A stretch of 64,000 bases of DNA from an uncultured Leifsonia sp. (GTDB taxonomy: Bacteria; Actinomycetota; Actinomycetes; Actinomycetales; Microbacteriaceae), in assembly GCF_945957465.1 (NCBI RefSeq), contig NZ_CAMFLC010000007.1:62001-126000 (forward strand), given 5' to 3'. A model generated the notes under the pieces. The model saw only the letters and a list, made by a program, of their open reading frames with translations, was not told the origin of the DNA and did no database searches. This document shows, one piece after another, positions 3,746 to 27,164 of this stretch (positions are counted from its first letter, which is position 1; every line of letters begins with the position of its first letter). A program made the translations under genes and the position numbers.

Positions 3746-3916
3746 TCAGGTCTCGCGCGGATACACCCGGGCATCGCCCGGAAGGCACCATGCGCTCTCC
3801 AGCCTGCCGTCGAGCGCCGAGTACTCGATGAGGAACTGACCGCCTTCGTCCGGTCCTTCCACGACGACTCCGGGGCGATCCCCGAGCCACACGGTGCTGC
3901 CGACTCCGATGTCCAT
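3746..3916 (-). CDS. Small hypothetical protein, 56 aa
   Basis: No family recognised. The peptide starts MDIGVGSTVWLGDRPGVVVE and reads like a small all-beta (SH3-like) fold, with alternating hydrophobic strands, turns rich in Gly/Asp, one cysteine and a C-terminus ending VYPRET. No signal peptide or membrane helix. Support for coding comes from GC-rich third positions and from minus-strand TATCCT (3924-3929) ending seven bases before the ATG at 3916, the same leaderless arrangement as in neighbouring genes. A longer frame beginning near 4387 crosses the repeat-bearing gap and is rejected. Its downstream neighbour is sdaA on the same strand, 77 bp away. Confidence 0.7.
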   Translation of the reverse strand: MDIGVGSTVWLGDRPGVVVEGPDEGGQFLIEYSALDGRLESAWCLPGDARVYPRET

Positions 3917-4327
3917 GCCGGTCAGGATACGCGTGCTGGTCGCTAACGGAGGAGATCGGCGGCCGGGGCCGGGCGATTTGAGGCTACCGGAGGAGATCGC
4001 CCCCGGACGGCACCGGATCTCCTCCGTTGCCGACCCCGCGAACCTGTGCGGCTGCACCATTGATCGCGTGCCGACCGGAGGAGATCCAGCCGGGATGGCA
4101 CCGGAACTGCTCACTTGCCTGCGCCCGTCCGGCGTGGCGCGCCGAAGCTCCTCCGTTCCCGGCGCGAAGCAACTTGAGCGTCTCGTCGCGTCTCCGCGGG
4201 TCGCCCGCCCGCGCTGGGGCGCGTCCGCGAAGGCGGCCGGCGTCGCATCGGTCCGCGACCTGCGCTGACCCCGGCCGCCGCTCACGGCCTGATCTCCTAC
4301 CGTCGCTTTCACCCCGGCGGTAGCTCT
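3917..4327. other. Gene-free gap with short dispersed repeats
   Basis: No convincing coding frame lies between the small gene starting at 3916 and the exporter promoter. The stretch holds five copies of a CGGAGGAG core, described separately, and otherwise GC-rich sequence without long hairpins besides the repeat pair. Open frames here have no -10 or Shine-Dalgarno support. Confidence 0.6.
3945..4157. repeat. Five copies of AACGGAGGAG/ACCGGAGGAG, three direct and two inverted
   Basis: Direct copies begin at 3945, 3986 and 4074, and inverted copies end at 4028 and 4157. The copies at 3986-4022 and 4074-4110 extend into a 37-bp unit with about 30 of 37 identical bases. The direct copy at 3988-3998 and the inverted copy at 4016-4026 form a perfect 11-bp inverted repeat with a 17-nt loop. 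Function unknown; it may be a small intergenic repeat family or a set of protein sites. Confidence 0.75.
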
Positions 4328-4370
4328 GTAAGCACGCCGTAAGCGCCGTGTAAGCGCGCCCGGCGAGCAT
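4328..4370 (+). promoter_or_regulatory. Candidate SARP-binding direct repeats and promoter of the ABC exporter
   Basis: GTAAGCA at 4328-4334 is followed by GTAAGCG at 4339-4345 and 4350-4356. The heptamers are separated by 4-bp spacers, giving an exact 11-bp period. Eight bases after the last heptamer lies GAGCAT (4365-4370), a plausible -10 with the conserved A2 and T6. This matches the known geometry of SARP-activated promoters: heptamer repeats on one helix face, with the last one 8 bp from the -10. A SARP gene lies just beyond the exporter. Confidence 0.65.
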
Positions 4371-4401
4371 CGACGCATCCACCTCATCAGGAAGGACCAC
4401 C

Positions 4402-5439
4402 ATGACTCGCAGCACCGAGTGGGCCGTCGAGGCCCACGGGCTCGTCAAGGTCTTCGGCGACAACCGCGCGGTCGACGGCGTCGACCTCACGGTCCGCGCC
4501 GGCACCGTCTACGGTGTCCTCGGCCCGAACGGGGCCGGCAAGACCACCACCATCTCCATGCTCGCCACCCTGCTGCGGCCCGACGGCGGCGACGCGTTCG
4601 TCTTCGGCCACGACATCCGCACGGAGCAGCAGGTCGTCCGCCAGCTGCTCGGCGTCACCGCCCAGTTCGCCTCGGTGGACGAGACGCTCTCGGCCAACGA
4701 GAACCTCATGATCTTCGCCCGCCTGCTCGGCCTGAGCGGTCGCGAGGCGAAGGCCAAGACCGCCGAGCTCCTCGAGGAGTTCGGGCTGACGGACGCCGCC
4801 AAGCGGCCGCTCAAGAAGTTCTCCGGCGGCATGCGACGCCGTCTCGACCTGGCGGCCAGCCTCATCGCGCAACCGCCGCTGATCTTCCTCGACGAGCCGA
4901 CCACCGGTCTCGACCCGCGCACCAGGGCGCAGATGTGGGACACCATCCGCCGCCTGGTCGCCACCGGTTCGACTGTGCTGCTGACCACGCAGTACCTCGA
5001 CGAGGCCGACCAGCTCGCCGACCGCATCGCGGTCATCGACCGGGGCCGGGTCGTCGCCGAGGGCACCGCAGACGAGCTCAAGGCGTCCGTCGGCGAGTCC
5101 TCGCTGCAGCTGCGGCTGGCCGACTCCAGCGACATCGAGGACGCCCGCCGTGCCATCGCCGCCGTGCTGGGGGTGGAGGCCGTGGTCTCGCCGGAAGGCT
5201 CGCGGCTCACCGCGCCGATGCGCGAGGCGGACGCCGTCACCGACCTGTTCGTCACGTTCCGCGAGGCGGGCATCCACCTGCAGGAGATGTCGGTGCAGAA
5301 GCCGACGCTCGACGAGGTCTTCCTGACGCTCACCGGCCACGGCGTGGAGGACGAGGAGACCGCGGACCAGGAGTCCGCCGAGACCGGGCAGGACGCTGCA
5401 TCAGAAGGAGCCACTACATCAGAAGGAATACGGGCATGA
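4402..5439 (+). CDS. ABC-2 type exporter ATP-binding protein (DrrA family)
   Basis: A 345-residue ATPase energising an exporter with the permease encoded next. Walker A is GPNGAGKTTT (about residues 42-51), the signature is FSGGMRRRLDLA, Walker B is LIFLDEPTTGLD, and the switch region is LLTTQYLDEADQLAD. The C-terminal DUF4162-like part (from about residue 235) and the overall order match DrrA, the daunorubicin-exporter ATPase family. Substrate unknown. An acidic tail rich in Glu/Ala ends the protein. The ATG at 4402 has the Shine-Dalgarno AGGAAGGA. The stop overlaps the permease start as ATGA, so the two are co-translated. SARP-like repeats lie upstream. Confidence 0.93.
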   Translation: MTRSTEWAVEAHGLVKVFGDNRAVDGVDLTVRAGTVYGVLGPNGAGKTTTISMLATLLRPDGGDAFVFGHDIRTEQQVVRQLLGVTAQFASVDETLSANENLMIFARLLGLSGREAKAKTAELLEEFGLTDAAKRPLKKFSGGMRRRLDLAASLIAQPPLIFLDEPTTGLDPRTRAQMWDTIRRLVATGSTVLLTTQYLDEADQLADRIAVIDRGRVVAEGTADELKASVGESSLQLRLADSSDIEDARRAIAAVLGVEAVVSPEGSRLTAPMREADAVTDLFVTFREAGIHLQEMSVQKPTLDEVFLTLTGHGVEDEETADQESAETGQDAASEGATTSEGIRA

Positions 5440-6254
5440 GCGCCATCGCCACCATCACCCCGCCCGCCGAGCGGAACCTGAAGAACCACGTCGGTCTCGG
5501 CCAGACGTTCTCGAACACGCTCACCATGGCCCACCGTGGCCTCCTGAAGATCAAGCGGACGCCCGAGCAGCTGTTCGACGTGACGCTGCAGCCGATCATC
5601 TTCACGATCATGTTCGCCCTGCTGTTCGGCGGTGCGATCACCGGGAGCGTCTCCAACTATCTGCCGTACCTGATCCCCGGCATCCTGGCGCAGACGGTGA
5701 TCACGACCTCCGTGGTCACCGGTGTGCAGCTGCGGGAGGACATGGACAAGGGCGTCTTCGACCGCTTCAAGTCCATGCCGATCGCGCGGATCGCGCCCCT
5801 CTCCGGGGCACTGCTGGCGGACACGCTGCGCTACGCCATCGCCACGACGATCACGTTCATCACCGGGTTCTTCATGGGCTACCGTCCCGCGGCGGGCCTC
5901 GGCTTCGTGATCCTCGCCGGACTGCTCGTCATCGTGTGCGCGTGGGCGATCAGCTGGATCTTCGCCTTCTTCGGCGTGATCGCACGCACGGCCGGATCGG
6001 TCCAAGGCATCTCGTTCCTGGTGCTCTTCCCGCTGACGTTCTTCTCGAACGCGTTCGTGCCGGTGTCGTCGCTGCCCGACTGGCTGCAGTGGTTCGTGAA
6101 CGTCAACCCGGTCTCGCATCTGGTGACCGCGGTCCGCGACCTCGCCAACAACGGCACGTTCGGCGCCGACGGCTGGTGGGCGCTCCTGGGCGCCACGGTC
6201 ATCGTCGCGGTCTTCGCGCCCCTCACCGTGCGCGCCTACATGCGGAAGGCGTAG
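5436..6254 (+). CDS. ABC-2 type exporter permease (DrrB family)
   Basis: A 272-residue membrane protein with about six transmembrane segments, partner of the ATPase encoded immediately upstream. After a cytoplasmic N-terminus comes RTPEQLFDVTLQPIIFTIMF, the typical ABC-2/DrrB entry, then hydrophobic stretches around residues 45-75, 110-145, 150-180, 185-205 and 240-265. NVNPVSHLVTAVRDL is the conserved ABC-2 C-terminal motif. The ATG at 5436 overlaps the upstream stop (ATGA) and has an AGAAGGA Shine-Dalgarno. The 11-bp string CATCAGAAGGA occurs twice just before it (5399-5409 and 5417-5427), duplicating the Shine-Dalgarno. Confidence 0.93.
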   Translation: MSAIATITPPAERNLKNHVGLGQTFSNTLTMAHRGLLKIKRTPEQLFDVTLQPIIFTIMFALLFGGAITGSVSNYLPYLIPGILAQTVITTSVVTGVQLREDMDKGVFDRFKSMPIARIAPLSGALLADTLRYAIATTITFITGFFMGYRPAAGLGFVILAGLLVIVCAWAISWIFAFFGVIARTAGSVQGISFLVLFPLTFFSNAFVPVSSLPDWLQWFVNVNPVSHLVTAVRDLANNGTFGADGWWALLGATVIVAVFAPLTVRAYMRKA

Positions 6255-6270
6255 CCTCCGCCCCCGATCA

Positions 6271-6307
6271 GCGGCCGTCGTCTCCTGCGGAGGGAGGCGG
6301 CGGCCGC
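6271..6307. terminator. Bidirectional terminator between exporter and SARP gene
   Basis: Two 15-nt arms (6271-6285 and 6293-6307) pair with two G-U wobbles around a 7-nt loop. It lies between the convergent ends of the exporter operon (6254) and the SARP gene (6344). A second small palindrome, GACAGGAGATCCTGTC, follows at 6321-6336. There is no U-tract, as is common in actinobacteria. Confidence 0.7.
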
Positions 6308-6343
6308 TCTGCTGCTCACCGACAGGAGATCCTGTCCTGCCCC

Positions 6344-9300
6344 TCAGCCTCGGGCATCGGCCAGCACCGCCAGCCCGCGCACGGCCGCCGCATCCCGCGT
6401 CAGCCCCGCCGCCGCCGCCTGCGCCGCGGCCAGCCGCTCATCGCCCCACACGCGACGCACCCGCGCCGCGAGCGGGCCGCGCCGCAGGCTCTCGATGTCC
6501 TGCCGGGAGTTCGACCGCTCGGCCAGCGCGAACAGCTCCAGGCCGCTGTCGACCCACGGGTCGCCGTGCGCCGCTGCGACCTCGGCGTCGAGCATCCAGA
6601 TCGCGTAGCCGAGGAGCCCGGTGCCGACGACCGGCTTGTCCAGGTAGGGCGGGCTCAGGCGCCCGTTCACCAGCACGCGTGTCCGCAGCCGCCGGGCCGC
6701 CGCCTCCGTGTCCTCCCGGTCCAGCAGGTCCGGGGCCGCCTCCTGCGCACGCAGCCGGGCCGCGACCAGCGCGGCGCCGAGGATCGTGAGCCACGGGTTG
6801 GCGACCGCGTCGCGCCCCGCCGAAGTGTCGTCGAGGTAGACGCCGATGGCCTCCTCGTAGAGCCGCACGCCCGCGCTGAAGTCGCCCTCGGCCAGCGCGA
6901 TCTCCGCCATGCCGGCGAATCCGATGCCGTGGTAGTCGACGTAGTCGAAGCCGGTGCGGTCGACCTCTTCGTAGAGGTAGTTCTCGAGCAGGATCCGCCC
7001 GCGCGCGATGTCGCCCGCCGAGATGGAGTTGACCGCGATCAGCCAGTCCAGCTGCCGCAGGTCGCCGGTGGCCTGGAGCAGCGCCAGGCCGGCGTGCGCC
7101 CGCTCGGCCCACTCGAGCGCCTCGCGCGGGTGGGCCAGCTGGCTGTGCAGCTGGGCGAGCGCCTGCGCCGCCGACGCGATCGACCAGGCGTCCTCCGCCT
7201 CCCGGGCCTTGGCGTGCGCGTGGGAGGCCGTGACGAGGGCATCGTCGAGCTCGCCGGCGTTCTCCTGCAGCTGCGCCGTGAGGAGGCTGCCCATCGCCGC
7301 CAGCTCCGGGTCGTCCGAGCGGCTGAACTCGGCGAGCAGGCGCATGCCCGGTTCGACATGACCCGCCGAGAGCACCAGGCCGGCGATCGCGTCGAGGCGC
7401 GGGTCGCCGAACGGCCGTTCGCGCCGCAGCCTCCGCAGGCGCGAGATGGCGCGGACGGCGGTGCGCAGCCCGGCGTAGAGGAACGTGCCGCCGACCAGCG
7501 CGTAGCACGCCGCCGCCGCGTCGCGGTCGTCGCCGTCGGGCTCCCAGCCGTCGAGCGCATCCATCACCGCCGGCCCGAACCCCAAGACCTCGGTGTGCAT
7601 GCTCCGCAGCGACCAGTAGTAGGCCAGCAGCGCGAACACGGCGGCCGCGATCTCCGGCCGCCGCCCGTCGATCGCCGAGCGCAGCACCGCGACCAGATTG
7701 TCCTGCTCGGCTGTCACGCGCGCGAACGTCGGCACCTGCGCGGGGCCGTGCATGTGCGCGAGGGCATGGCGTGCGAAGCCGACGGCCCACGCGTCCACGC
7801 CGTCGCGGACCTCGCCGGTCTCGCCCGCCGAAGCGAGCTCCCGTTCGCCGAACTCCCGGACGGTCTCGAGCATGCGGTAGCGGAGGATGCCGGTGGCCGC
7901 GTCCTCCGACACCGTCACGAGCGATTGCGCGACGAGCGCGTCGAGGTCGTCGAGGACGGATGCGCCGCCCGTGCCGGCGACGGCCTCCGCCGCATCGGTG
8001 CTGAAGCCGTCGGGGAAGACCGAGAGCCGGCGCATCAGCGACTGCTCGGACGCTCCCAGCAGGTTCCAGCTCCAATCGATGACCGCGAACAGGGTGCGAT
8101 GACGTTCCGGGGCCGTGCGATCGCCTCCGGTCAGCAGCGCGAACCGGTTGCCCAGGCGGCGTGCGATCTCCTCCACCGACAGTGAGCGTGTCCGGGCGGC
8201 CGCGAGCTCGATGGCGAGGGGGAGGCCGTCGAGCCGTTCGCACAACCGGGCCACGGCCTCCGGAGGCAGCACGACGCCCGGCCGCGCCGCCCTCGCCCGC
8301 TCGGCGAACAGCCGAGCTGCGGGCCCGTCGTCGTCGGAGGGCAGCGGGCCGAGGGCGTAGACGCGCTCGGCGCCGATCGCGAGCGGCGCGCGACTCGTGG
8401 CGAGTACCCGCACTGTCGGGGTCGACGAGAGGATGTCCTCGATGTAGGCCGCTGCGGCATCCACGATGTGCTCGCAGTTGTCGACGATGAGCAGGGTCTC
8501 ACGCTCCGAGAGCAGCCCCAGGATCCGCGAGCGCAGATCGAGCTGGGCTCCGGGCTCGGCGAGGCGGGTGGTCCGGGCCTCGCGGATGCCGAGCGTGGAG
8601 GCGAACGCCAGCTCCACGTCGTCGCCGGTCCGCACGCTCGCCAGCTCGACCAGGATCACCGCCGGCGTGTGGATGGCGCGCTGGCCGACCTCGTTCGCCA
8701 GCCGCGTCTTGCCCAGCCCGCCGGCGCCGAGGATCGTGGTCAATCGGGAGGTCGCGACGAGGTCCTCGACGGCGTCGAGGTCGTACTCGCGGCCGACGAG
8801 CGCGTTCGGGGCCGTGCGCAGCCCGATGCGGACCCGGCGGGGCGCGGCGGCCTCGCGATCGTCCTCCTCGGCGAGGAGCTGCGCGTTCAGGGCGACCAGT
8901 TCGGGGCCGGGGCGCGTGCCCAGGCGGTCGAGGAGGGCCTCCTTCAGCTCGGCGAACGCCAGCAGGGCGTCGCTGCGCCGTCCGGCGTCGGCGAGGGCGC
9001 GCATCCGCTCGGCGTGCAGAGTCTCGTCGTACGGGCGCTCCGCGAGCAGGCGCTGGAGGTCCGCCAGCGCTGTCGCCGTGTCGCCGCTCTCGCGGGCCGC
9101 GCCGGCGCGCACCGCCAGCAGGTCGGAGCGCAGTTCGCCGGCCGCCCGCGCGAGCTCGTCGGCCAGCCGCGTTCCGCCCAACTCCAGCCCGGGCTCACCG
9201 CGCCACAGCAGGAGGCCCGTGTTCGCGACCCGTGCGGCCTCAGCCGGGTCGCCCGCCGCGCGCGCGGCACGCGCCTGCCCGAGCAGTGCGCGCGCGAGTC

Positions 9301-9610
9301 CGAGGTCGGTGCGGTCGGCCGCGACCGCGAGTGCGTAACCGGACGGCGTCGACTCCAGCAGGCCGTTCGCGGTGGCCGTCCGCACGCGGGAGACCAGCGT
9401 CTGCAGCGCGGCACGTTCCTGGCGTGGCGGGGTGTCGTCCCAGAGGTCTTCGACCAGTGTCGCGACCGACGCTGTTCCGTCGGCCAGCACCAGCGCGACG
9501 AGGAGGCTCTTGCCGCGCGTGCCCGGCGGCTCGGCGAGCGTGCCCGTGCGGTCTTCGGCGAGCACCGGGCCGAGCACGGCGACACGGAGGCTGGCGGGCG
9601 CGGATTCCAC
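6344..9610 (-). CDS. SARP/AfsR-type transcriptional regulator with ATPase and TPR-like region
   Basis: A 1088-residue regulator. Residues 8-95 form the OmpR-like winged helix (LRVAVLGPV, then LVEDLWDDTPP and ALQTLVSRVR). Residues about 100-248 form the bacterial transcriptional activator (BTAD) domain. An NB-ARC/STAND ATPase follows, with Walker A GAGGLGKT at 295-302 and Walker B LLIVDNCEH near 373-381, plus LPLAIELAAARTR. The C-terminal 450 residues are Ala/Leu-rich helical repeats, TPR-like. This is the AfsR architecture. The GTG start at 9610 lies six bases after minus-strand TAAGAT (9617-9622), without a Shine-Dalgarno. Its likely target is the exporter operon ending 90 bp away, whose promoter has heptamers at 11-bp spacing; this is inference. 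Confidence 0.9.
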   Translation of the reverse strand: MESAPASLRVAVLGPVLAEDRTGTLAEPPGTRGKSLLVALVLADGTASVATLVEDLWDDTPPRQERAALQTLVSRVRTATANGLLESTPSGYALAVAADRTDLGLARALLGQARAARAAGDPAEAARVANTGLLLWRGEPGLELGGTRLADELARAAGELRSDLLAVRAGAARESGDTATALADLQRLLAERPYDETLHAERMRALADAGRRSDALLAFAELKEALLDRLGTRPGPELVALNAQLLAEEDDREAAAPRRVRIGLRTAPNALVGREYDLDAVEDLVATSRLTTILGAGGLGKTRLANEVGQRAIHTPAVILVELASVRTGDDVELAFASTLGIREARTTRLAEPGAQLDLRSRILGLLSERETLLIVDNCEHIVDAAAAYIEDILSSTPTVRVLATSRAPLAIGAERVYALGPLPSDDDGPAARLFAERARAARPGVVLPPEAVARLCERLDGLPLAIELAAARTRSLSVEEIARRLGNRFALLTGGDRTAPERHRTLFAVIDWSWNLLGASEQSLMRRLSVFPDGFSTDAAEAVAGTGGASVLDDLDALVAQSLVTVSEDAATGILRYRMLETVREFGERELASAGETGEVRDGVDAWAVGFARHALAHMHGPAQVPTFARVTAEQDNLVAVLRSAIDGRRPEIAAAVFALLAYYWSLRSMHTEVLGFGPAVMDALDGWEPDGDDRDAAAACYALVGGTFLYAGLRTAVRAISRLRRLRRERPFGDPRLDAIAGLVLSAGHVEPGMRLLAEFSRSDDPELAAMGSLLTAQLQENAGELDDALVTASHAHAKAREAEDAWSIASAAQALAQLHSQLAHPREALEWAERAHAGLALLQATGDLRQLDWLIAVNSISAGDIARGRILLENYLYEEVDRTGFDYVDYHGIGFAGMAEIALAEGDFSAGVRLYEEAIGVYLDDTSAGRDAVANPWLTILGAALVAARLRAQEAAPDLLDREDTEAAARRLRTRVLVNGRLSPPYLDKPVVGTGLLGYAIWMLDAEVAAAHGDPWVDSGLELFALAERSNSRQDIESLRRGPLAARVRRVWGDERLAAAQAAAAGLTRDAAAVRGLAVLADARG

Positions 9611-9667
9611 TCGCCGATCTTAGCCAGCGTGGCACACCGCTCGCGGCACCGCGCGTAGGCTCAGCCC
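9611..9667. promoter_or_regulatory. Divergent leaderless promoters for SARP gene and methyltransferase
   Basis: In 57 bp there is a minus-strand TAAGAT (9617-9622), six bases before the SARP GTG, and a plus-strand TAGGCT (9656-9661), six bases before the methyltransferase ATG. Neither start has a Shine-Dalgarno. The -35 regions would face each other inside the gap. Two GCGGTG hexamers sit 12 bp apart on the minus strand, which is not the 11-bp SARP spacing. Confidence 0.7.
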
Positions 9668-10249
9668 ATGGCGTTCGACTGGTCCCGCTTCTACGAGAAG
9701 CAAGGCGGACGCGGGGTGCGCCCCACGTTCGAGGCGGCACTCGACGCGTGGGACGGCGCTCCGGGGTTCGCGGTCGATCTGGGCTGCGGTGACGGTGTGG
9801 AGACGCGCGAGCTCGCCGAGCGCGGCTGGAGCGTGCTGGCGGTCGACGCGGACCCCGGCGTCGACGACCGGGTGCGGGCGGGGCTCTCTCCGGAGGCGTC
9901 CGCGCGGGTGGAGACCCGGCGGGCAGCGTTCGAGGCGCTCGGCGAGCTGCCGCGGGCGGAGATCGTCTACGCCGGGTTCGCGCTCCCGTTCTGCGACCCC
10001 ACGCGGTTCCCCTATCTGTGGGCCGACATCCGCGACGCGATCGAGCCGGGCGGCCTGTTCGCGGGGGAGCTGTTCGGGCCGCACGACGAGTGGTTCGGGC
10101 GGCCCGGGATGAACTTCCACGACCGCAGCGGCGTGGAGGCCATGCTCACGGGGCTCGAGGTGCTCCGCCTGGTGGAGGACGACCGCCGCGGGATGTCGTT
10201 CGAGGGGCCCAAGCACTGGCACGTGTTCCACATCGTCGCGCGCGCCTGA
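9668..10249 (+). CDS. Class I SAM-dependent methyltransferase, substrate unknown
   Basis: A 193-residue soluble Rossmann methyltransferase. Motif I is FAVDLGCGDGVETRELA (about 37-53), the acidic end of strand 2 is VLAVDADPG, and the post-motif region EIVYAGFALPFCDP precedes IEPGGLFAGELFGPHDEWFG. The C-terminus, KHWHVFHIVARA, is the closing beta hairpin. The substrate cannot be inferred. The start ATG at 9668 is preceded by TAGGCT six bases upstream and no Shine-Dalgarno, hence probably leaderless. It is divergent from the SARP regulator and shares its 57-bp promoter gap, so joint regulation is possible but unproven. The following 190 bp to vapB hold nothing coding that I can support. Confidence 0.88.
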   Translation: MAFDWSRFYEKQGGRGVRPTFEAALDAWDGAPGFAVDLGCGDGVETRELAERGWSVLAVDADPGVDDRVRAGLSPEASARVETRRAAFEALGELPRAEIVYAGFALPFCDPTRFPYLWADIRDAIEPGGLFAGELFGPHDEWFGRPGMNFHDRSGVEAMLTGLEVLRLVEDDRRGMSFEGPKHWHVFHIVARA

Positions 10250-22328: not shown

Positions 22329-25262
22329 TCAATTCTTGACGGGTCGGTCGCTCCGGGCGGGTCGGCGCCGGGGAAGCGCGAGGGCACGGAGCTCACGGCG
22401 GGAACGCATCCCGAGCTTCGCGAGGATGTTGCGCACGTGGAAGTTGACCGTCGTCACCGAGACGTAGAGCCGCTCGGCGATCTCCTTGTTCGTCATCCCC
22501 GCGGCCAGGGCGTGCGCGACCTGACGCTCCCGCGTGGTCAACGAGGCGAGCGGGTCGGCCGCCGACGCCTGTCGGGCGTCCGCGGCGTCGCCGGCGGTGC
22601 GCATCGCGTCCAGCAGGTGGGCGGTGCGGGCGAGGTAGGTGCTGGCGCCGAGCCGGCAGAAGGTGGCGGCGGCCTGCTCCAGCAGCGCGATCCCGGCGGC
22701 GCGTTCCGCGTCGCCGTCGGCCGGGGTCGCCCTGCTTGCGTCGACGGTTCCGGCCGCCAGCAGGCGGCCGGCGTCGAGCGCCGCGATCGCGGCGGGGAAC
22801 GGGAAGCGGGGTGACGCCGCGGCCTCCCGGTACGCGTCGAGCGCCTCTGCGCGGCTGCCCTCCGCCTCCAGCACGCGTCCCTCCAGCCAGCGCAGAGAGC
22901 CGTAGTACGGCCGCCAGGGCCCGGGGGCGGCGCACTGCAGGTACGCTGCCCGGGCCTCGGTGGCGCGGCCGAGTGCCGCCAGTGCGTCCACCCGGTAGGT
23001 CAGCCAGCCCTGTGTCGAGGAGCGGCTCGCCGCCTCCTCGGCGTCGAGGGTGGCGCGGTGCTGGTCCTCCGGCCGCCCGAGTGCGCGTGCCAGTTCGGCG
23101 CGGGCCAGGAACGGCAGGTCGCCGTCGTACGATCCGGTGATCCGCGGGTCGGCCTTCGCGGCGGAGCGCAGGCGCTCGTTCACCGGTTCGGTCTCGCCTC
23201 GGCCGGCGCGTACGAGCGTCGACGTCCAGAGCGCGATCGGCCAGCACGACAGGTCGGTCTCGTCGAGGGCCAGCGCGACCGCGGTGTCGGCCAGGGTGAC
23301 CGACTCCTCCCACTCGCCCGACAGGAAGAGCAGGTGCGCGTACATCGTCCGCACGAAGCCCGCCGTCCAGCTGCTCGGGAAGCGGCGGACCAGGTCGTTG
23401 GCGCGCGCGAGGTCGGCGTGCGCGCCCTCGATGTCGCCGCTGATGATGAGCACTCGGGACCGGGCCACGAGCGCGTCCACGGCGGCCGGGGACTCGTGAT
23501 GCGCGAGCAATGCGTCGAGCTCCGCCGTGAGCGGCGCGAACAGGTCAGGGCGCCGCGCGTGCGCGGCCGAGATGAGCGCCCAGCCGACCAGCCGGACGAG
23601 GTGCTCCTCCGGTTCGGCGAGCCAGCGCAGCGCGGGATCTGCGACGTCTTCGGGGCGCGGGCAGGCGGCGATGTGCTCGCGTGCCGTGTCCAGGTGGTCC
23701 AGCACGCCGGCGAAGTCTCCCATCGCCATCAGCACCTTGGGCAGCGCCTCGGCCACGTGGGTGCGGATGGCGCGCTCGTCGGGAGTGCGCGCCGGGGCGG
23801 CCTCCAGCTGGAGGGCGAGCTGGAGCGCCCCCGGCACGTCGCGCGAGAGCGTGCGCAGCTCCAGGAGCACGGCATCGCGGGCGGGCGACGCCGGAAGCGC
23901 CTCGATCGCCGGGCGCAGGTCGAGGATCTGCTCGTGCAGCCGGAAGCGCAGCGCGAGCAGCCCCAGCTCGACCAGCGGACGCTCCCGCTCGCCCTCCGTG
24001 GCCAGGTGCATGGCCGAGCGGGCGTAGCTCATCGCCTGCTCCGCCCTGCCCAGCTCGGCCGCAGCCAGGGCGGCCGTGAGCAGCTCGTCGACGAGGCGGG
24101 GGTCGGCCGTGTCGGCGGCCTCCACCCGGTGCCGCAGGGCGCGGTGCCCGTCGAGCACGTCGGCGGCGACCCGGTGGATCTGCACCCGCCGTTCCACGGT
24201 GAGCCCGGCGGCCAGGGCATCGGCGAGGAGGGCGTGCGCAGGCTCCACCCACAGCACGCCGTCGCGCGGCGTTCCGAGCACGAGGCCCCGCGTCACGGCC
24301 CCCGGCACGTCGAGCCGCTCGCCCAGGCGGGCGGCGATGGAGCCGACCACGGGGGCCGGGAGCGGGTCGCGCAGCACGGCGATGAACTCGGCAGCAGTGC
24401 GAACTGACCGGTCGGCGCCCTCCAGGGCCGCCGAGATCGCCGACGCGAGCGGCATGATCGCGGTGTCGGGCAGGTCCCAGCCGGCCGGATGCAGGGCCTG
24501 CGTGAAGGTGTCGCGCAGCTGCCCGAGGAGCACGCTGAGCAGCAGCGGAGAGCCCTGGGTGGCCTCGGTCAGCCGGGTCGCGGTGCGTCGCGAGATCGCG
24601 TGCCCCAGAATGTGCTCCGCGAGTTCCTGCGTGTCGGAGACCGTGAGGGGCGACAGGTCGATACGGGCGTGGTTGACCGACGACGCCGCGAGGTCCTCGA
24701 ACAGCGAAGACACGCTGTTCGGCTGCGGCCGCGTCGCGGCGGTGAAGAGGAAGCCGCGATCCGACATCCGGCGGACGACGAATCGCAGCGCTCGCGCCGA
24801 CGGCTCGTCCACCCACTGCGCGTCGTCCACGATCAGGCACACCGGTCCGGAGAGCGCGTCGACGGCGTCGAGAAGCAGCCGCCCGACCGTCAGCGCGTCG
24901 TCGTCGGGGGCGGGAGGCCGGATCGGCCGGCCGCCGAGCGCGGCGAGGCCACGGACGAGGGTCTCGACGGTGGCGTAGGCGAGGTCGGACTCGAACGAGT
25001 CGGCGCTCGCCCGCAGCACCGTCCAGCCGTCCAGCCGCTGGGCGACATCGGCGAGCAGCGCCGTCTTGCCGAGGCCGGCCTCGCCGGTGATCAGCACGGC
25101 GCCGCCGCGGTCGAGCGCACGATGCGCGACGAGGAGGATGGTCTCGCGGGAGCGGTCCCGGCCGATGAGCGGCCGCGCCGTCGAGTCCACGTCGGTCACG
25201 GTCGCCCCCATCCACCCGCGCGGGTCGGGTAACGGGAGTGCGCGGTCCGGTTCGTCGATCAT
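22329..25262 (-). CDS. LAL-type LuxR-family regulator with AAA ATPase domain
   Basis: A 977-residue regulator of the large ATP-binding LuxR (LAL, MalT-like) class. Residues 33-67 hold LIGRDRSRETI and Walker A GEAGLGKT (60-67); Walker B is LIVDDAQWVDEPS near 143-155. The central 500 residues are helical repeat-like. The C-terminal 60 residues are the LuxR helix-turn-helix: LTTRERQVAHALAAGMTNKEIAERL then VNFHVRNILAKLG. The ligand and targets are unknown. The chosen start is ATG 25262; ATG 25209 (MGATVTDVDS) is possible. No convincing -10 or Shine-Dalgarno decides between them. It reads against ispE and away from the ABC-F gene, which looks like insertion into a conserved pair. Confidence 0.88.
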   Translation of the reverse strand: MIDEPDRALPLPDPRGWMGATVTDVDSTARPLIGRDRSRETILLVAHRALDRGGAVLITGEAGLGKTALLADVAQRLDGWTVLRASADSFESDLAYATVETLVRGLAALGGRPIRPPAPDDDALTVGRLLLDAVDALSGPVCLIVDDAQWVDEPSARALRFVVRRMSDRGFLFTAATRPQPNSVSSLFEDLAASSVNHARIDLSPLTVSDTQELAEHILGHAISRRTATRLTEATQGSPLLLSVLLGQLRDTFTQALHPAGWDLPDTAIMPLASAISAALEGADRSVRTAAEFIAVLRDPLPAPVVGSIAARLGERLDVPGAVTRGLVLGTPRDGVLWVEPAHALLADALAAGLTVERRVQIHRVAADVLDGHRALRHRVEAADTADPRLVDELLTAALAAAELGRAEQAMSYARSAMHLATEGERERPLVELGLLALRFRLHEQILDLRPAIEALPASPARDAVLLELRTLSRDVPGALQLALQLEAAPARTPDERAIRTHVAEALPKVLMAMGDFAGVLDHLDTAREHIAACPRPEDVADPALRWLAEPEEHLVRLVGWALISAAHARRPDLFAPLTAELDALLAHHESPAAVDALVARSRVLIISGDIEGAHADLARANDLVRRFPSSWTAGFVRTMYAHLLFLSGEWEESVTLADTAVALALDETDLSCWPIALWTSTLVRAGRGETEPVNERLRSAAKADPRITGSYDGDLPFLARAELARALGRPEDQHRATLDAEEAASRSSTQGWLTYRVDALAALGRATEARAAYLQCAAPGPWRPYYGSLRWLEGRVLEAEGSRAEALDAYREAAASPRFPFPAAIAALDAGRLLAAGTVDASRATPADGDAERAAGIALLEQAAATFCRLGASTYLARTAHLLDAMRTAGDAADARQASAADPLASLTTRERQVAHALAAGMTNKEIAERLYVSVTTVNFHVRNILAKLGMRSRRELRALALPRRRPARSDRPVKN

Positions 25263-25358
25263 CGCACACCCGGGCGTATGGTCGGTTTCCCCCAAGGAGG
25301 GGGAGTGATCCGCCTCCGGCGTCCGGGCGGACGGCGCGACGGTAGGCTGGAGGACCGT

Positions 25359-27164
25359 ATGGCTCATCTCCTCGGCGCCGAATCGCTGCATCTCGAATAC
25401 CCGACGCGGGTCGTCTTCGACTCGGTGACCATCGGCGTCTCCGAAGGCGACCGCATCGGCGTCGTCGGACGCAACGGCGACGGCAAGTCGACCCTCCTCT
25501 CCCTCCTCGCCGGGCGGCTCGAACCCGACTCCGGCCGCGTCACCCGGCGCCGGGACGCGACGGTCGGGATGCTCGACCAGCGCGACGACCTCCCGGACGC
25601 ACTGACCGTCGGCCGGGCCATCGTCGGCGATCGCGAGGAGCACCTGTGGGCGGGCGACCCGCGCGTGCGCGACGTGCTCGCCGGTCTCGTCGCCGACATC
25701 CGCTGGGAGGCGACCATCGGCGAGCTCTCGGGCGGCCAGCGCCGCCGGGTGGCGCTCGCGGCGCTGCTGGTGCACGACCACGACCTGCTCTTCCTCGACG
25801 AGCCGACCAACCACCTCGACATCGAGGGCGTCGCCTGGCTGGCGTCGCACCTCAAGCAGCGCTGGGCAGCCGGATCGGGCGCCCTCGTGGTGGTCACCCA
25901 CGACCGCTGGTTCCTGGACGAAGTGTCGACCTCGACCTGGGAGGTCCACGACGGGATCGTCGAGCCCTTCGAAGGGGGCTACGCGGCATATGTCCTGCAA
26001 CGGGTCGAGCGCGACCGCATGGCTGCCGTCGCCGAGACCAAGCGCCAGAACCTCATGCGCAAGGAGCTCGCCTGGCTGCGCCGCGGAGCCCCTGCGCGCA
26101 CCTCCAAACCGAAGTTCCGGATGGACGCCGCCGCGGCGCTGATCGCCGACGAGCCGGCACCGCGCGACGCGGTCGAGCTGACCAAGCTCGCGACGGCCCG
26201 GCTCGGCAAAGACGTCGTCGACCTCCTCGACGTCACCGTGGAGTTCCCGCCGAAGACCGTGCTGCGCGACGTGGAGTGGCGCATCGCTCCCGGTGAGCGC
26301 ACCGGCATCCTCGGCGTCAACGGCGCGGGCAAGTCCACCCTGCTCGGCCTCGTCGCCGGCAGCGTCGAGCCGACCTCCGGACGCGTCAAGCGCGGCAAGA
26401 CGGTCAAGATCGCCACGCTCACGCAGCAGCTCGACGAGCTCGACGCCGTGCGCGACCAGCGCGTCAGCGCCGTCGTCGCCGACAAGCGCACCACCTACCT
26501 CGCGGGCGGCAAAGAGGTCACGCCCGGCCAGATGCTCGAGCGCCTGGGCTTCACGAACGCGCAGCTGTCGACTCCGGTGAAAGACCTGTCGGGTGGTCAG
26601 AAGCGCCGCCTCCAGCTGTTGCTGATCCTGCTGGACGAGCCGAACGTGCTCATCCTGGACGAACCGACGAACGACCTCGACACCGACATGCTCGCTGCGA
26701 TGGAGGACCTGCTCGACGGCTGGCCCGGCACGCTGCTGGTGGTCTCGCACGACCGTTACCTCGTCGAGCGCGTGACCGACCAGCAGTACGCGGTGATCGA
26801 CGGCGCCTTCCGGCACCTGCCCGGCGGCATCGACGAATATCTGCGGCTGCGACGGGAGCGGAGCGCTTCGCCGAGCGCAGCGGCCGGCACTGCCGCGACC
26901 CCGGCGGCCGGGGCCACCGCTGCCGCGTCACCGGTTCTCTCCGGCGCGGCCCTGCGCGCGGCGGAGAAGGAGCTGGCGTCGATCGACCGGCGGCTCGCGA
27001 AGCTGGCCGGTCAGGTCGCCGAGCACCACGAGTCGATCGCACGCCACGATCAGTCCGACTACGTCGGCCTCGGGCGCCTCACCGAAGAGCTGCGCGCGCT
27101 GGAGGGCGAGATCGCCGACCAGGAGACCCGCTGGCTGGAACTCTCGGAGCAGCTCGAGGGCTGA
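25359..27164 (+). CDS. ABC-F family ATPase (Uup-like)
   Basis: A 601-residue soluble protein with two ABC ATPase domains and no membrane segment. Domain 1: Walker A GRNGDGKST, signature LSGGQRRRVALA, Walker B LLFLDEPTNHLD. Domain 2: GVNGAGKST, LSGGQKRRLQLL and VLILDEPTNDLD. The linker (about 225-265) is Arg/Lys-rich, and the last 75 residues form a Uup-type coiled coil after an Ala/Pro linker. ABC-F proteins bind the ribosomal E site and aid translation or resist antibiotics; which applies here is open. ATG 25359 follows TAGGCT (25343-25348) and a GGAGG. An in-frame GTG at 25305 behind AAGGAGGGGG is an alternative start adding 18 residues. Confidence 0.93.
   Translation: MAHLLGAESLHLEYPTRVVFDSVTIGVSEGDRIGVVGRNGDGKSTLLSLLAGRLEPDSGRVTRRRDATVGMLDQRDDLPDALTVGRAIVGDREEHLWAGDPRVRDVLAGLVADIRWEATIGELSGGQRRRVALAALLVHDHDLLFLDEPTNHLDIEGVAWLASHLKQRWAAGSGALVVVTHDRWFLDEVSTSTWEVHDGIVEPFEGGYAAYVLQRVERDRMAAVAETKRQNLMRKELAWLRRGAPARTSKPKFRMDAAAALIADEPAPRDAVELTKLATARLGKDVVDLLDVTVEFPPKTVLRDVEWRIAPGERTGILGVNGAGKSTLLGLVAGSVEPTSGRVKRGKTVKIATLTQQLDELDAVRDQRVSAVVADKRTTYLAGGKEVTPGQMLERLGFTNAQLSTPVKDLSGGQKRRLQLLLILLDEPNVLILDEPTNDLDTDMLAAMEDLLDGWPGTLLVVSHDRYLVERVTDQQYAVIDGAFRHLPGGIDEYLRLRRERSASPSAAAGTAATPAAGATAAASPVLSGAALRAAEKELASIDRRLAKLAGQVAEHHESIARHDQSDYVGLGRLTEELRALEGEIADQETRWLELSEQLEG

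Follow-up and report, generated by a model that had tools for sequence, protein, structure and literature searches.

We analysed a SARP-type regulator gene and the promoter of the ABC exporter operon next to it in a 64,000-nucleotide stretch of DNA from an uncultured Leifsonia sp. (contig NZ_CAMFLC010000007.1, positions 62,001 to 126,000), hereafter the window, in which positions are counted from its first letter. Direct repeats with an 11-bp period stand before a -10-like hexamer upstream of the exporter genes, and the gene of a large SARP faces these genes from the other side. The features are as follows.

4304..4312, minus strand: inverted half-site CGCTTTCAC (GTGAAAGCG on the minus strand), 22 bp start to start before direct repeat 1
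4326..4334, plus strand: direct repeat 1, CTGTAAGCA, with GTAAGC at 4328-4333
4337..4345, plus strand: direct repeat 2, CCGTAAGCG, with GTAAGC at 4339-4344
4348..4356, plus strand: direct repeat 3, GTGTAAGCG, with GTAAGC at 4350-4355
4365..4370, plus strand: -10-like hexamer GAGCAT (NANNNT), starting 17 bp after the start of repeat 3
4389..4396, plus strand: probable ribosome binding site AGGAAGGA, read from the sequence
4402..5439, plus strand: DrrA-type ABC exporter ATPase of 345 residues (TIGR01188 drrA, ABC_tran, DrrA1-3_C)
5436..6254, plus strand: ABC-2 type permease of 272 residues (PF01061 ABC2_membrane, 8e-32)
6270..6308, no strand: 16-bp inverted repeat between the convergent genes, a possible two-way terminator without a T run
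6344..9610, minus strand: large SARP regulator of 1088 residues (BTAD 8e-26, AAA_22 4e-7; phmmer matches to the AfsR chains 8hvr, 8k60 and 8jke and to EmbR 2fez)
8405..8749, minus strand: nucleotide-binding (NOD/STAND) core, residues 288-402, Walker A GAGGLGKT (PF13401, AfsR alignment and translation)
8873..9310, minus strand: BTAD domain, residues 101-246 (PF03704, full model 1-146)
9317..9610, minus strand: OmpR-type winged-helix DNA-binding part, about residues 1-98, with recognition helix ALQTLVSRVR (alignment to AfsR)

An earlier, sequence-only reading of this DNA had pointed to GTAAGC heptamers at 4328, 4339 and 4350, and on checking these coordinates hold, with a spacing of exactly 11 bp. 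The unit is better described as the 9-mer GTGTAAGCG, repeated with the same period. The last heptamer, GTAAGC(A/G), ends at 4356 and so leaves the claimed 8 bp before GAGCAT, a hexamer that is weak on its own. The known rule for SARP sites asks for repeats 11 or 22 bp apart, the last of them 8 bp from the -10 element (PMC10936776, available in part); the window sequence satisfies it, and in this respect the geometry agrees with that described for SARP activators. A single GTAAGC occurs in the window at background frequency (5 seen against 5.2 expected), and the paired form GTAAGCN5GTAAGC is found at a single place in the genome of 4,055,485 bases (two overlapping matches; the reversed pattern, used as a control, gave 0). 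The triple array is unique in the genome even when 3 mismatches are allowed, the reversed control giving 13 matches, and the lag-11 self-match of the promoter was equalled by 2 of 1000 dinucleotide shuffles. Scans of 3800-9800 returned 0 sigma-70 promoters and 0 terminators.

The regulator matches PF03704 over the full model (91.5 bits against a threshold of 22.1, 8e-26) and aligns with AfsR over residues 5-588, SARP domain and STAND core included. No Pfam winged-helix model matched it at 0.001, and with 113 bits it falls below the cut-off of 1430 for the AfsR equivalog NF053617. That it is the only SARP-type protein in the window proved to be an understatement, as a Pfam BTAD search with 40 candidates scored found no second BTAD protein in the whole 4.06-Mb genome. 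It does lie directly beyond the exporter genes, with the refinement that the SARP gene is convergent with the operon and is thus 3' of it. Within the operon the ATPase and permease genes overlap by 4 bases; the ATPase passes the TIGR01188 cut-off for the DrrA subfamily (360 against 312.45 bits), and the permease misses the DrrB cut-off TIGR01247 (77.1 against 223.05).

Relatives of both genes were collected. The SARP as query against genome contigs gave 52 loci, with an adjoining exporter in Leifsonia (SARP identity 62-89%), Diaminobutyricibacter, Subtercola, Herbiconiux, Frigoribacterium and Nocardioides, and further in Catellatospora, Hamadaea, Amycolatopsis and one Streptomyces; about half of the loci, mostly matches to the ATPase part, had no such exporter alongside. 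From a DrrA search of 394 genomes of the class, 60 of the matches listed were fetched first, and 71 further loci followed, 31 from the class list and 40 from the matches listed in 398 genomes of the family, these 40 leaving out Leifsonia-genus matches and many same-genus duplicates. Among the first 60, DrrA identity (to P0002) above about 60% went with a linked SARP, apart from three loci close to the end of a contig or fetched stretch, and lower identity went with none; four loci of the SARP search with DrrA identity of 50-55% were also linked. The exact triple GTAAGC, sought in 299 genomes of the family, gave 3 matches, each before a DrrA orthologue. Of 9 further genomes of the genus, 8 gave SARP matches that cover almost the full protein, in one of them (G178) as two overlapping frames, and one Leifsonia genome, G055, held neither a full-length SARP nor a DrrA match at 1e-112. 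At three loci (L006, L007, L009) the SARP gene lies upstream of the exporter and co-directional with it, against the convergent order of the other linked loci compared in that set, so the link between the two has survived rearrangement. Taken together, these loci support a predicted module that is present in several families of the class rather than local to this genome.

Some loci of the comparison have features of their own. In G178 (C1:1027326-1030606) the two SARP frames cover residues 1-598 and 594-1087, by frameshift or sequencing error. About 2 kb of other sequence separates permease and SARP in L003, L008 and L010; by eye, the translations resemble a methyltransferase and an ArsR-like regulator in L003 and membrane proteins in L008 and L010.

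For the promoters, a matrix of 9 positions was fitted on 57 training promoters (consensus GTG[A/T][A/C]A[G/C]CG), and each locus was compared with 100 dinucleotide shuffles at p <0.05. The initial matrix was chosen manually, when the held-out promoters had already been viewed, although the fit itself used no loci but those of the training set; many of the held-out loci share their families with training loci. Four loci (L217, L225, L125, L221) were relabelled by hand as SARP-linked, three (L121, L146, L206) were set aside as their contigs end nearby, and duplicates were dropped, namely L055 and L056 from the shuffle test (promoters identical to L012 and L009) and one promoter from the matrix test (157 to 156). 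A later check saw no SARP match in what remains of the contigs of L121, L146 and L206.

On these terms an in-phase array precedes DrrA at 121 of 122 unique SARP-linked loci (56/57 training and 65/65 held-out), at 3 of the 3 contig-end loci set aside, and at 1 of 31 DrrA homologues without a linked SARP (2 of 32 when L146 is counted as SARP-less). The one weak SARP-linked locus, L045, reached p 0.09, its best site being TTGCCAGCC with CACTGT at +17. An outcome named beforehand as telling against a regulated unit, that relatives with both genes would be without the heptamers, was therefore not seen; what is kept is the 11-bp array, and its letters vary, exact GTAAGC being the Leifsonia-type form. 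With no motif assumed, lag-11 self-match was significant at 44 of 56 SARP-linked loci against 4 of 30 others, and among these 4, L125 has a SARP just outside the fetched stretch and the genome of L121 has one at the end of another contig. For SARP-linked loci the mean self-match rose to 13.3 at lag 11 and to 11.5 at lag 22, from 8.8-9.9 at other lags, so that their profile has peaks at these two lags only; that of non-SARP loci was flat (9.4 at lag 11).

The position of the -10-like hexamer was not used in the matrix fit. Counted from where the last repeat starts, NANNNT stands at exactly +17 at 104 of 121 array loci (45/56 training, 59/65 held-out), and at either +17 or +28, as if one further repeat had been missed, at 118 of 121; CAGAGT, CACCAT and TAGCGT are common forms. 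The repeat itself takes different letters by lineage (GTAAGC, GTCAGC, GTGAAAC, GTGATACC), and some lineages use 22-bp spacing (L138, L140, L143, L145). An array kept for a reason other than a bound protein, such as structure in the mRNA leader or chance carry-over by synteny, might be entertained for the Leifsonia-clade promoters, which share ancestry and would stay alike for a time. It is extremely improbable in view of the change of letters between lineages while the 11-bp phase and the +17 distance persist, of in-phase copy numbers that vary from 2 (L003) to 6 (L008), and of the place of the repeats upstream of the presumed start site.

At L008 the array upstream of DrrA is larger, with 7 AAG-type cores of which 6 are in phase. 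Leaderless mRNA is suggested for the lineages of L018, L129, L132 and L134, where only some 6-7 bases separate the -10-like hexamer from an ATG; in Leifsonia, by contrast, a leader is present and contains a ribosome binding site.

Loci that seemed to lack the SARP were checked in the whole genome at 1e-30, for 10 genomes. In G057, G1055, G004 and G1005 the gene stands just outside the part that had been fetched, and in G194 it is on another contig, at the contig end. L217, L225 and L125 as cases of an array without a SARP, and L221 as SARP-less, were accordingly rejected, a SARP gene being close to the fetched part in each, as was L121, whose genome encodes a SARP on a different contig, at its end. 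The genomes G018, G127, G032, G216 and G703 gave no match to the SARP at 1e-30, and the DrrA promoters of the first four are without an array (p 0.38-0.84, or 0.52-0.95 with the fitted matrix). Three of them, G018, G127 and G032 (loci L244, L247 and L248), keep DrrA at 70-74% identity and have neither a SARP match nor an array.

This joint absence bears on the identity of the protein at the array. Another winged-helix regulator that uses 11-bp repeats, for example a response regulator of the PhoP/OmpR type, might bind there with the SARP as a bystander, and since PhoP and AfsR have common sites in Streptomyces (PMC10972967, available in part) repeat geometry alone does not name the protein. 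Such a regulator is nonetheless very unlikely, as the array tracks the SARP with the counts given above, as the three genomes with a close DrrA and no SARP match are also without the array, and as a single array site in the genome is ill-suited to a global regulator.

The recognition helix points in the same direction as the coupling. In the structure of AfsR, base contacts are made by Arg92 and Thr88, and phosphate contacts by Arg87, Ser91, Arg94 and Lys95 (in the available part of PMC10936776); by alignment, the positions of Arg92, Thr88, Arg87, Ser91, Arg94 and Lys95 are here R, T, Q, S, R and T. The residue at the Thr88 position was compared with the repeat type at the 80 of 119 SARP-linked loci (56 + 63) where the helix can be read and the repeat class is paired. 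Where it is V, repeats are of the GAA type at 32 of 33 loci; where it is A or S, they are of the CAG type at 16 of 16; and where it is T (31 loci), they are AAG at 23, CAG at 8 and GAA at 0. A permutation test made with the first loci gave 0/100,000, a figure that ignores ancestry and was not used as a probability.

A further element, absent from the sequence-only reading, was uncovered by the 9-mer form of the repeat. The inverted copy at 4304-4312 has a position weight matrix score of 14.2, beside 14.8 for the last direct repeat and 10.7 and 10.6 for the other two. Among 113 loci, 8 having been left out for too short an upstream part, inverted sites with a score of at least 8 and no overlap with a direct repeat were present at 20, against 3.9 expected from shuffles. 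Fifteen of the 20 stand 21-23 bp from the first repeat, where 4% of shuffled sites fall; they comprise 11 of the 15 Leifsonia-clade loci, with the spacing of the window, and 4 others in the family, beyond which the element is not general in this sample. The conserved CGCTTTCAC might be taken for a -35 box, a reading that we rejected: the hexamer 17 bp further along is AAGCAC and no TANNNT, and CGCTTTCAC itself is a near-perfect inverted repeat unit.

We propose that the locus is very probably a dedicated export module of one regulator and one operator, in which the SARP would bind the array, recruit RNA polymerase and activate the exporter. We base this on the gene identities, the array and its phase, the promoter geometry, the coupling of array and SARP across several families, their joint absence in some genomes and the shared contact residues. 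The large SARP, with its winged helix, BTAD, STAND ATPase and long C-terminal region, would occupy the three repeats in a row along the same face of the DNA helix. As the last repeat starts 17 bp before a poor -10 element, the array-bound SARP would stand in for the missing -35 element and recruit RNA polymerase like AfsR at afsS. The inverted half-site, two helical turns upstream, would probably take one more protomer in the opposite orientation, which may strengthen or shape the complex. Switching on would need ATP and a signal, perhaps the exported compound or a membrane stress; before that, the STAND and C-terminal parts probably keep the SARP inactive. Binding and activation are predictions, as are the role of the inverted site, the signal and the substrate.

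The direction of control deserves separate attention. The SARP might bind the array and repress the exporter until a ligand relieves it, as in TetR-exporter pairs; many exporters next to a regulator are repressed, and the joint absence of SARP and array suits repression equally well as activation. At least one SARP, Atr32, acts negatively (according to the available part of PMC10972967). We consider repression unlikely here, as the repeats end 8 bp before the -10 element, in the -35 position from which AfsR activates (PMC10936776, in the part available), and as poor -10 elements (CAGAGT, CACCAT, GAGCAT) suit an activator-dependent promoter. The same part of PMC10936776 describes the SARP domain of AfsR on two 11-bp repeats side by side, with sigma region 4 on top and contacts to beta, beta' and alpha, and NOD and TPR parts that are inhibitory until ATP binds. 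The promoter here has an AfsR-like layout, in which repeats replace the -35 box and the -10, at a set distance from them, is weak; activation is therefore the likely mode for the SARP and exporter of the window.

Several observations weigh against the proposed module. The sensor had been called an AfsR-like ATPase/TPR protein, a label that is supported in part: BTAD and AAA_22 were detected, and no TPR model reached 0.001. The promoter of the SARP gene itself (9560-9720) has no direct repeats and hence no sign of autoregulation. L146 (G703) has a 22-bp-spaced array in a genome without a SARP match at 1e-30, and the 2.4 kb of contig after its permease hold none; it counts also in favour of another regulator, and is likely an exception or a case of a SARP missing from the assembly. 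Absence of the SARP was judged within the fetched 5-6 kb for 27 of the 31 no-SARP loci and checked in the whole genome for 4. The module is patchy, with a DrrA match at 1e-112 in 93 of 398 family genomes. As for the recognition residue, 39 of 119 loci fall outside the count, including L119 (T, with unpaired GAA-type cores), and a first rule made after viewing the first loci, T with AAG only, failed on the held-out loci (6 AAG, 8 CAG). On the DrrA tree of 80 tips the residue class changes 5 times, 2 of these changes sharing a branch with a switch of repeat class, and with so few independent events the match supports, and does not prove, direct reading.

The unit had also been placed outside any biosynthetic cluster, which is supported for the open reading frames (ORFs) that were scanned. 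The neighbours are, by family matches, a rhodanese-type sulfurtransferase, a methyltransferase and a CoA-binding protein, and eight further large ORFs, a subset of those in the window, have ordinary functions or no match and no polyketide synthase or nonribosomal peptide synthetase domain. Among the ORFs scanned, a biosynthetic gene cluster around the SARP, the mark of a cluster-situated SARP, was not seen. Elsewhere in the window, 22329-26816 on the minus strand encodes a LuxR-type protein with an AAA ATPase (LAL-like). Just upstream of the exporter promoter, 3938-4161 holds imperfect palindromic repeats with arms CCGGAGGAGATC / GATCTCCTCCG in 2-3 copies; a 12-mer of these repeats has 8 occurrences in the genome against 0 for a reversed control, and they may belong to an intergenic repeat element that is dispersed.

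SARPs are familiar as regulators that switch antibiotic clusters, chiefly in Streptomyces. We would suggest, tentatively and at somewhat less than even chances, that SARPs may also have a widespread role outside antibiotic production, as a signal-gated exporter switch that is patchy in several families of Actinomycetia and has an operator architecture of its own (with the inverted half-site in Leifsonia and kin), a STAND regulator in a larger complex of mixed orientation, and a recognition code readable at one helix residue. With one SARP found, one operator and one target operon, the genome allows a clean reading of cause and effect. Some 120 natural pairs of SARP and operator make up a collection in which the SARP recognition code, and what is sensed by large STAND-type SARPs, can be studied, and should the module answer to drugs or membrane stress it would constitute an intrinsic export response common to several actinobacterial families. 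In the literature searched, in which coverage of subscription journals was thin, no SARP-exporter module of this kind was found.

Among known systems, the daunorubicin exporter DrrAB resembles the exporter of the window in its ATPase, which is above the TIGR01188 cut-off, and differs in its permease, which here is under the DrrB cut-off (77 against 223), and in the anthracycline genes, of which none was seen among the ORFs scanned. EmbR of mycobacteria (2fez) shares the winged helix and BTAD, aligned over residues 11-250; it is not known to have a STAND ATPase of this kind, and its target differs from the exporter here. Cluster-situated SARPs, such as DnrI at dnrD, ActII-ORF4 and PimR, likewise use three repeats with 11-bp spacing (in the available part of PMC10972967), but they serve biosynthetic clusters, whereas the only array found in this genome is at a stand-alone exporter with non-biosynthetic neighbours among those scanned. 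The closest comparison is AfsR at the afsS promoter of Streptomyces coelicolor (8hvr, 8jke, 8k60). There the target is afsS and not an exporter, the repeat is CGTT(T/C)ATCGnn and not GTGTAAGCGnn, two repeats are used rather than three and an inverted one, Arg87 and Lys95 stand where Q and T stand here, and the regulator of the window remains far from the AfsR equivalog (113 bits against 1430). Both systems combine a winged helix, BTAD and a STAND ATPase with 11-bp direct repeats beside a poor -10 element, AfsR Thr88, Ser91, Arg92 and Arg94 are kept here, and the distance from repeat to -10 is also 17 if the afsS -10 is assumed to begin at -12. What is notable over known SARP control is the predicted non-biosynthetic target, the one-to-one simplicity within the genome and the extra inverted half-site.

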